Assembly (NCBI GenBank): GCA_903850885.1 | Contig: CAINMU010000010.1 | Location: 43,218-107,217, forward strand | Reading direction: 5' to 3' | From: an uncultured Opitutia bacterium | GTDB lineage: Bacteria; Verrucomicrobiota; Verrucomicrobiia; Opitutales; UBA953 | DNA length: 64,000 nt | Shown: in pieces, positions 35,525 to 38,709 of the stretch | Layout: the number at the start of each line of letters is the position of its first letter | Position numbering within the stretch: the stretch's first letter is position 1 | Made by a program: the position numbers and the translations under genes | Notes under the pieces: model-generated | The model's database searches: none | Told to the model about the DNA's origin: nothing | Seen by the model: the letters and a program-made list of their open reading frames with translations, nothing else

Positions 35525-36622
35525 ATGGGTTCATACTCTGATTTAGCAAACCGTCCGGTACTGACCCAACCCGTCTACGAGGCTGGGCGCCCAATCGAAG
35601 TGGTCGCTCGTGAGTTTGGCTTAGATCCGGCTTCGGTGATCAAATTAGCGTCCAACGAAAACCCCCTTGGGCCATCCCCGCTTGGGCTCACGGCAGCCCG
35701 CAAAGCTCTTGAAGTCTGTCACCTTTATCCTGATGGGGGCTCCACTTTCCTTCGCGAAAAATTAGCTAAAAAATGGAATCTGACACCGAATAATTTTGTC
35801 ATCGGTAATGGCTCCAACGAAGTCATGATCTTACTCGCCCAAGCGTTCTTACGCCCAGGGGATGAAGTTGTCTTCGGCTCTCAGGCTTTCATCGTCTATA
35901 AGCTTGCGACCATGCTGTTTGGAGCGACGGCTGTCGAGGTGCCGATGCCCGGTTTTAGGCATGACCTCAAAGCCATGCGTGCGGCGGTCACCAGCCGCAC
36001 CCGAATCCTATTCTTGGCCAGCCCGAACAACCCCACGGGTGGAACGGATGAGCCCGCTGATATCCTGGCGCTCGCCGACTCCCTTCCCGAAGACGTGATT
36101 TTCTGCTTAGACGAGGCTTACGCGGAATACCTTGAGCATTCTGCCGACCTGCGGCCCCTGATGGCTTCGGGTCGCAAGGTCGTGGTCAGTCGCACCTTTT
36201 CCAAGGCATACGGTTTGGCTGGCCTACGCGTAGGTTACCTCATGGGTTCGGCGGAAGTATGCGGGTTACTGAATCGCGTCCGCCAACCGTTCAACGTCAA
36301 CTTGCCCGCCTTGGCCGCCGCAGAAGCCGCGCTGGATGACGTCGCTTTCGTCACCCGCACCAAGGAAGTTAACGCCCAAGGCTTAAGTCAGGTGGGTGCG
36401 GGACTAAAGGCCCTAGGTTGCGAATTCATTGAAGGAAAAGCCAATTTCTTAGCAGCCAAGATACCCCAAGCCGACGAGGCCTTCATGCATCTTCAGAGGG
36501 CTGGAGTAATCGTCCGTCCGCTCAAGGGCTACGGCATGACGGGATGGTTAAGACTCACCGTCGGCACCTCCGCCCAGAATGAGCGCCTGTTAAGCGAACT
36601 CACCAAACTTATCTCCCGATGA
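35525..36622 (+). CDS. hisC: Histidinol-phosphate aminotransferase
   Basis: KLASNENPLGPSP, SPNNPTGG, VVSRTFSKAYGLAGLRVGYL. Confidence 0.93.
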   Translation: MGSYSDLANRPVLTQPVYEAGRPIEVVAREFGLDPASVIKLASNENPLGPSPLGLTAARKALEVCHLYPDGGSTFLREKLAKKWNLTPNNFVIGNGSNEVMILLAQAFLRPGDEVVFGSQAFIVYKLATMLFGATAVEVPMPGFRHDLKAMRAAVTSRTRILFLASPNNPTGGTDEPADILALADSLPEDVIFCLDEAYAEYLEHSADLRPLMASGRKVVVSRTFSKAYGLAGLRVGYLMGSAEVCGLLNRVRQPFNVNLPALAAAEAALDDVAFVTRTKEVNAQGLSQVGAGLKALGCEFIEGKANFLAAKIPQADEAFMHLQRAGVIVRPLKGYGMTGWLRLTVGTSAQNERLLSELTKLISR

Positions 36623-37014
36623 ATTTCGACGAAGCCGTCCGCCTCATCCGAGCCAAGGATTCCCGTTATCAGGCGCAAGCCTACGACCTCGTTAGAGTCG
36701 GCTTGGATCACGCCCAAAAAATAGTCTACGGCGAAGCCAAGAAAGGGAAGAGTTTGGTCAACCGCCATGTTACAGGGCCTCAGCTCTTGGAGGGGTTTCG
36801 ATTGCACGTACTTACGACCTACGGACCGATGTCTTACCCCTTACTCCAAAACTGGGGCCTAAAGAAGTCCAGCGACGTCGGTAACATCGTTTTTAATATC
36901 ATTGAGACCGGTATGTTCGGACGTTCTCCCGAAGATAACTTGGAGGACTTTGAAGCAGTCTATGACTTTAAAGAGACCTTCCATAAGCCGTTTGACCCCG
37001 GTAACTCTAACTAA
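36619..37014 (+). CDS. Conserved hypothetical protein (Minf_1886-type family)
   Basis: 131 aa with ATGA overlap to hisC; LLEGFRLHVLTTYGPMSYPLLQNWGLKKSSDVGNIVFNIIE resembles the Minf_1886 family as I recall it. Confidence 0.75.
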   Translation: MNFDEAVRLIRAKDSRYQAQAYDLVRVGLDHAQKIVYGEAKKGKSLVNRHVTGPQLLEGFRLHVLTTYGPMSYPLLQNWGLKKSSDVGNIVFNIIETGMFGRSPEDNLEDFEAVYDFKETFHKPFDPGNSN

Positions 37015-38066
37015 GCATTCACGAGGCTGATCAGGCGAACGTCCTGACAACCCCGCAGCAGTCGGATCTTGGCCAGCATCGAGCGTTCATGAAAACGGAC
37101 TTCGGATTTAATGACGGCATTTTCGCATTGGATCACAAGTTTTCCGCCTTCAAGGACGCGCACGGGGGCGCAACGCTTCGCAAGTTTAAGCGGTAAAAGT
37201 TCATGCCAATGCGCAATGATCGCGTCCTCCGGAACCGGCCGCCCTAACCGTAGTTTCTTGAAAGCCTCAGCCATTGCATCGTCCATCGACTTCAGCGGTC
37301 GATCGGTTGAGCGGCCCCGATCTTCGGGCAAGCCGCTGAGATTAGCCAAAAGGTTGAGTACGGTACGGGAAAATTTCCCCTTTTGCTTTCCCTCGGTGAC
37401 TAAGGCGCGGATTAAATAAGGTAGCTCGATGAGCTTCTCGGCCCGCAAGCAACGCTCGGGAGCATAGGCGCCGCCGACGATAACACCCGTCGCTCCTGAC
37501 TCTCTGGCCGCTTCCCCGTCGAGCAATGGGTCGTTACCGATATGGACTAATGCGGAGGTGGCGACGCCGAGCTGCCGGGCGGCATGCGAAAAGAACTTCG
37601 CGTCCGGCTTGGCCAGGGCGATTTCTGAAGAGAGGAATATTCCGTCCAGATGCTTGGTTAAGCCCTTAGCCTCCAGGACTTGCCGCATCCTCGTATCGGC
37701 ATTGGAGAGAATTCCGACCTTGATGCCCAAAAACCTGATTGCGGTAAGCGCATTGATCGCACCTGGCTGCAGCCGCCAATTCTTTTCATCTGCAAAGGCA
37801 TGCCAGCATTCCTGAAAAACGGGTTCAAGCTTTGCGGCCGGCAGGGAAGGGCCGAAACAACGCTGCACGACCTCCCGCCAAAAAACTTCTGGCTTCGACC
37901 TTTGGGGCCCCCCTTTGAAGGCGAGCGGAAAGGCGGCCTCAAGGAACGCCGGTTGCACTTCCACGCCATGCTTCTGGGCGCAGCGCGCATAAATCGTTCC
38001 GACGGAAGGATGGGGTACGACCAAGGTTCCGGCTAAATCAAAGGTGACTGCTTGGACGATTGCCAT
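37011..38066 (-). CDS. HAD-like hydrolase fused to a C-terminal DciA/DUF721-like domain
   Basis: N-terminal HAD signatures (FDLAGTLV, GILSNADTRM, KPDAKFFSHAARQLG, HIGNDPLLDGEAARESGATGV). C-terminal about 110 aa (FSRTVLNLLANLSG...MDDAMAEAFKKLRLGRPVPEDAIIAHWHELLPLKLAKRCAPVRVLEGGKLVIQCENAVIKSEVRFHERSMLAKI) reads as DUF721. Confidence 0.8.
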   Translation of the reverse strand: MAIVQAVTFDLAGTLVVPHPSVGTIYARCAQKHGVEVQPAFLEAAFPLAFKGGPQRSKPEVFWREVVQRCFGPSLPAAKLEPVFQECWHAFADEKNWRLQPGAINALTAIRFLGIKVGILSNADTRMRQVLEAKGLTKHLDGIFLSSEIALAKPDAKFFSHAARQLGVATSALVHIGNDPLLDGEAARESGATGVIVGGAYAPERCLRAEKLIELPYLIRALVTEGKQKGKFSRTVLNLLANLSGLPEDRGRSTDRPLKSMDDAMAEAFKKLRLGRPVPEDAIIAHWHELLPLKLAKRCAPVRVLEGGKLVIQCENAVIKSEVRFHERSMLAKIRLLRGCQDVRLISLVNA

Positions 38067-38232: not shown

Positions 38233-38709
38233 ATGAACCTTCCCCGTCTCGGCCAAATAGCCCTCGCAGCACTCTTTGCCGTTATTTCGGTCGCCTGCAG
38301 CACGAGCGCGACCTCCTCCGCCGATCTTAAATCCGTCAGTAAAATCTTCGTGGCCGACACCGCGGCTTCGAACACGCTCGAGACAAACGCGCTCAATAAC
38401 GCCGTCCACGACGCGGCCGTCAGGGAACTCCAGCGCTTGGGCTATGCGATTACTTCCAACAGCAATGAAGCCAACGCCACCCTCCGAAGCTCTTGGCGCA
38501 CCCGCAAGGGCGAAGGCGTTCGCAATGATTCGGAGTCCATCTCTCTTTCTTTGTCGCTCTTCAGCAAGTCCGGTCAGCGGCTCTTTGACGCTGACTCCGG
38601 TCCGGCCGTTTTGGCCAACTTCTGGAATGAATCCCGAGCCAACACGGAAGTCATCGCGATGCTTGCCCGCCTACCTCACGCGGAGTTAGCTGCGGGTTCT
38701 CATAAATAA
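38233..38709 (+). CDS. Putative lipoprotein of unknown function
   Basis: Signal peptide with lipobox-like ISVAC|S in MNLPRLGQIALAALFAVISVACSTSATSS. Start re-chosen from 38044. Confidence 0.7.
   Translation: MNLPRLGQIALAALFAVISVACSTSATSSADLKSVSKIFVADTAASNTLETNALNNAVHDAAVRELQRLGYAITSNSNEANATLRSSWRTRKGEGVRNDSESISLSLSLFSKSGQRLFDADSGPAVLANFWNESRANTEVIAMLARLPHAELAAGSHK

Follow-up and report, generated by a model that had tools for sequence, protein, structure and literature searches.

A HAD domain fused to the helicase loader DciA as a stable trait of one family of freshwater Verrucomicrobiota

DciA is more widespread than any other helicase loader of bacteria, and throughout one freshwater family of Verrucomicrobiota (UBA953, order Opitutales) it is stably fused to a HAD domain. 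We examined it starting from the window, a 64,000-nucleotide stretch of DNA from an uncultured Opitutia bacterium, in which a single reading frame encodes both parts. From sequence comparison, we favor, with moderate confidence, a reading in which the HAD half became an accessory, structural, and partly pseudoenzymatic domain of the helicase loader after a single fusion. The gene and its parts occupy the following window positions:

37011..38066, minus strand: HAD-DciA fusion gene, an uninterrupted frame of 351 codons plus stop
37392..38066, minus strand: HAD hydrolase half, residues 1-225 (PF00702, AF2 model, and HDHD3 match), with an alpha-helical C1 cap at about residues 20-95
38025..38039, minus strand: HAD motif I, D10-L-A-G-T14, with the nucleophile Asp kept and the second Asp replaced by Ala
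37518..37544, minus strand: HAD motif IV, H175-I-G-N-D-P-L-L-D183
37011..37376, minus strand: complete DciA half, residues 231-351 plus stop, delimited by comparison with split relatives
37299..37376, minus strand: native N-terminal motif of DciA, KFSRTVxNLLANLxGLPEDRGR, residues 231-256, conserved in stand-alone DciA of the order
37284..37286, minus strand: internal ATG (M261), a proposed alternative start judged not to be real
37029..37283, minus strand: PF05258 (KH-like) DciA domain, residues 262-346, including Trp287
37206..37208, minus strand: codon of Trp287, invariant across all aligned DciA rows

The initial annotation had read this frame as a HAD hydrolase followed by a DUF721-like domain, and Pfam bears out both halves with matches above the curated cut-offs. 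Hydrolase (PF00702) covers residues 5-191 (E 4.6e-20), and the DUF721 similarity is that of DciA (PF05258) over residues 262-346 (E 1.3e-12; 48.1 bits against a curated cut-off of 24). Alignment with split dciA genes places the own N-terminus of DciA at about residue 231 rather than at the start of PF05258 (residue 262), because the fused proteins retain KFSRxxxNLLANLxGLPED, the motif found at the N-terminus when DciA stands alone in these bacteria. Within this segment, F232, R234, N238, A241, L243, G245, P247, and R256 are invariant (alignment A1). The DciA half is basic (pI 9.94), and the protein stops right behind the KH-like domain.

The AF2 model, built from an alignment of 47 fused sequences (mean pLDDT 83.9), contains two confident domains, a HAD domain at about residues 1-220, where pLDDT stays at about 80-96 as far as residue 220, and a KH-like domain at about residues 279-350. 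Between them lies a low-confidence linker (residues 226-278) that takes in the region of the DciA N-terminal motif. Human HDHD3 (3k1z) is the top PDB match of the HAD half by both sequence and fold (fold E 6.9e-16), and the DciA half has a single PDB match, a DciA DUF721 domain (7ykm). By domain match and fold, the HAD half belongs with the C1-capped proteins of HAD subfamily IA. The best NCBIfam match of the HAD half is TIGR02252 (DREG-2), with scores of 147.4 and 149.2 bits that do not reach the cut-off of 155.2 bits. HDHD3 resembles the present proteins in lacking the second motif I Asp (DVKDTL), whereas fusion to DciA and decay to a cap-less, noncatalytic core set the latter apart from REG-2/HDHD3-like HADs.

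The survey of fused and split forms in relatives suggested alongside the initial annotation gave a clear division: the two parts are fused across family UBA953 and split elsewhere in the order. Within the family, direct reading of the sequence gave the fused frame at 45 loci (44 genomes), which represent all five genera sampled, and no stand-alone dciA was found. Exceptions comprise two genomes in which the gene is cut at a contig end (G023 and G458) and others in which it was not found (e.g., G016, G572, and G574). Across 20 further families of the order, dciA occupies stand-alone frames of 120-241 amino acids, and the HAD gene is common as a separate gene, often away from dciA. Looking more widely for DciA fusions in a 289-genome sample of the phylum, we found PF05258 alone in ten that were among the longest remaining dciA frames, so these ten are just long open frames. 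An apparent second fusion in one genome (G371, a 438-amino acid frame) consists of two ORFs with stops between them. Phage records gave no match that would point to a phage origin. DciA and haloacid dehalogenase never occurred together in one paper in our literature search, whose scope did not extend to the survey of DciA domain architectures reportedly made by Blaine et al. (J Bacteriol 2022).

At least five other families (f5, f8, f15, f18, and f20) carry a split HAD gene of this type with dciA directly downstream of it in the same orientation. In G040, the HAD stop and the dciA start overlap by 4 bases as ATGA, while in G281 the two ORFs share a frame and are separated by one TAA. On a tree of the concatenated proteins, the distribution of split and fused forms requires one change. 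Together with the adjacency in other families, this comparison shows that neighboring HAD and dciA frames fused once, before the genera of family UBA953 split. The ancestors of these Opitutales carried a REG-2/HDHD3-like HAD gene directly upstream of dciA, and the two reading frames were joined ahead of genus divergence.

The window genome (2.34 Mb, 96% complete, in a fragmented assembly of 152 contigs) contains one DnaB and one DciA match, the fusion protein, and no second, canonical dciA was found in it. Nor was a DnaC/DnaI-like loader found in this genome, where the sole PF01695 match over the cut-off is DnaA; a weaker match to the same profile falls in a 528-amino acid frame. Since dciA and dnaC/dnaI are reported to be mutually exclusive (PMC5109545), the fusion protein very probably carries out helicase loading, and its C-terminal half is the only recognizable DnaB loader of the cell. 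The half shares with DciA (PF05258, DUF721), the ancestral replicative helicase operator or loader (PMC5109545), the KH-like domain, the invariant Trp, and a basic character (pI about 9.9), whereas the HAD domain in front is a feature of the fusion only. Characterized DciA proteins make use of sequence on both sides of DUF721. In Caulobacter, DnaB is bound by a C-terminal extension that has conserved leucines (PMC9825169); the N-terminal extension there binds single-stranded DNA and is required for helicase loading (PMC12547741). In Mycobacterium tuberculosis, both ends of DciA bind DnaB, and the conserved DUF721 Trp (W113) is important (PMC5720831). Unlike Caulobacter DciA, the fusion protein lacks a leucine-containing, DnaB-binding C-terminal extension, so any extra contacts would have to be N-terminal, through the motif at residues 231-256 and possibly the HAD half. 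The Caulobacter and Mycobacterium proteins both carry only short sequence before DUF721; here, that place is taken by a folded HAD domain and the conserved KFSR...GLPED motif.

The catalytic residues of the HAD half are conserved to different degrees. In the window protein, the nucleophile D10, S121 of motif II, and K153 of motif III are present, and all catalytically intact fused proteins keep D10, T14, K153, and D183 along with Ser or Thr at position 121. The DxD pattern of motif I is incomplete, the second Asp being missing in every protein, split relatives included; the position holds Ala in the window, and the remaining rows with an intact active site have Ala, Thr, Gly, Phe, or Val there. 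The acidic pair of motif IV reads N178-D179...D183 in the window, and nearly all relatives have D178, while D183 is conserved in all. Asn occurs at position 178 in the window species and in two close relatives (loci L025 and L087), and the near relative L026 has Asp; the substitution is possibly the beginning of active-site loss in that lineage. Within the window's genus, median dN/dS values of about 0.11 (HAD half) and about 0.06 (DciA half) place both halves under strong purifying selection. Given the conservation of the nucleophile Asp, the Ser/Thr, the Lys, and the motif IV Asp, catalysis is probably still selected in most of family UBA953. In the window lineage, where the active site is largely intact, the HAD half may retain its old activity. 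The HAD halves of fused proteins mostly have a pI of 7-9, rising to 11 in decayed ones, and three of five split relatives have a HAD pI of 5.6-6.1; fused HADs thus tend to be more basic in this small sample.

The decayed proteins belong to genus g171, in which the HAD half is intact in three genomes (loci L166, L170, and L192) and decayed in four (L172 in G553, L173 in G485, L174 in G509, and L194 in G586). The decayed HADs have lost D10, S121, K153, and D178, three of the four have also lost T14, and the cap is deleted. On the tree of concatenated proteins, these four rows, drawn from four MAGs with a completeness of 75-94%, cluster together inside the fused clade (support 94/85). Their HAD residues 103-225 average 51% identity, against 38% for their DciA halves, and differences within the clade are about twice as frequent at third codon positions as at the first two. 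Core identity and codon pattern indicate that the decayed remnant is translated and constrained, although it cannot work as an ordinary HAD enzyme. A search of three decayed genomes (G485, G509, and G553) found no other intact REG-2-like HAD. Such decay may be peculiar to g171, and the four loci form a natural pseudoenzyme series in which the fusion and the core are conserved.

Two further g171 genomes, G572 and G574, have no DciA detected by PF05258 or by family-specific profiles, and their PF01695 matches are DnaA-sized only. Either contigs are missing from these assemblies or the loader has been lost or replaced, and helicase loading in g171 may itself be changing. As for replacement by DnaC/DnaI, a strong IstB-like match was found in one of nine g171 genomes scanned (G524), in a frame with an internal TAG. 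This IstB-like ATPase frame (L239, G524:C229:6172-6873), with its one internal TAG, is probably a broken IS21 element.

A remnant that is catalytically dead yet still constrained points to a structural or binding role and speaks against catalysis being why the two parts are fused. In the reading that we consider the probable one, the HAD half would ride as an N-terminal accessory domain attached through a flexible linker. Catalysis would not be what maintains the fusion, inasmuch as one lineage has lost the catalytic residues and the cap while the core stayed under selection. The contribution of the HAD half to replication would most likely be noncatalytic, by contact with DnaB, DnaA, or DNA, or by stabilization of the loader. 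A more specific version is plausible but held more tentatively: a HAD phosphatase would have been recruited as a nonenzymatic accessory of the loader, in place of the DnaB- or DNA-binding extensions of other DciA proteins, and in one lineage would have become a cap-less pseudoenzyme whose core is more conserved than the loader domain. The progression from split operon to catalytically intact fusion to pseudoenzyme fusion provides a natural set of variants for studying which regions of DciA beyond DUF721 contribute to DnaB loading, and it bears on whether the replication machinery can take up an enzyme as a structural component.

Two other functional accounts of the HAD half must be weighed against this accessory role. 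It is conceivable, if rather unlikely, that the two halves of the chain work independently of each other. The HAD would then be a metabolic enzyme unrelated to replication, and the fusion would only fix the ratio of the two products or would have followed when overlapping genes of an operon lost the stop codon between them. A fixed-ratio effect is possible in itself; moreover, the separate HAD gene is widespread in the order, often not adjoining dciA, and the split neighbors described above are only one stop codon or a 4-base overlap short of fusion. A pure metabolic passenger, however, would not be expected to persist as a noncatalytic remnant with the identity seen over residues 103-225 in the decayed clade. 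Still less probable is an enzymatic coupling in which the HAD half hydrolyzes or senses a phosphorylated metabolite and so regulates loading by the attached DciA. In its favor are the strong purifying selection on the HAD half and the retention of D10, T14, K153, D183, and a Ser or Thr at 121 by every fused protein that is catalytically intact. Yet the second motif I Asp is missing throughout, in split relatives as well, D178 has become Asn in the window species, and outside family UBA953 HAD and DciA are often unlinked. The g171 subclade, moreover, remains fused although its nucleophile, motifs II and III, first motif IV Asp, and cap are gone, with no separate HAD of the same kind in the three genomes scanned. 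As a general mechanism, the metabolite-coupled helicase loading put forward in the initial annotation is thus not upheld.

The proposal that a DciA-only protein is also made from an internal start at 37286 fares worse and is very improbable. In the window species, the in-frame ATG does lie where it had been reported, as M261, at the edge of PF05258. Codon 261, however, varies, with Met in the window and in some relatives but Ile or Leu in many others, and no convincing ribosome-binding site immediately precedes 37286. Initiation there would also remove the invariant motif at residues 231-256, that is, the conserved N-terminus of DciA, and we therefore rejected M261 as an alternative start. Finally, that a frameshift or an error of sequencing or assembly joins two genes, a concern given the 152 contigs of the window assembly, is a negligible prospect in view of the identical in-frame junction at all 45 loci.

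The fusion gene shares its upstream region with a divergent ORF at 38233-38709 that encodes a small lipoprotein-like product (MNLPRLGQIALAALFAVISVACS...) and has no match in NCBIfam. On the other side, at 36619-37014, a gene of the Minf_1886 family (TIGR04138), to which no function is assigned, converges on the fusion gene, their stop codons overlapping by 4 bases (37011-37014).
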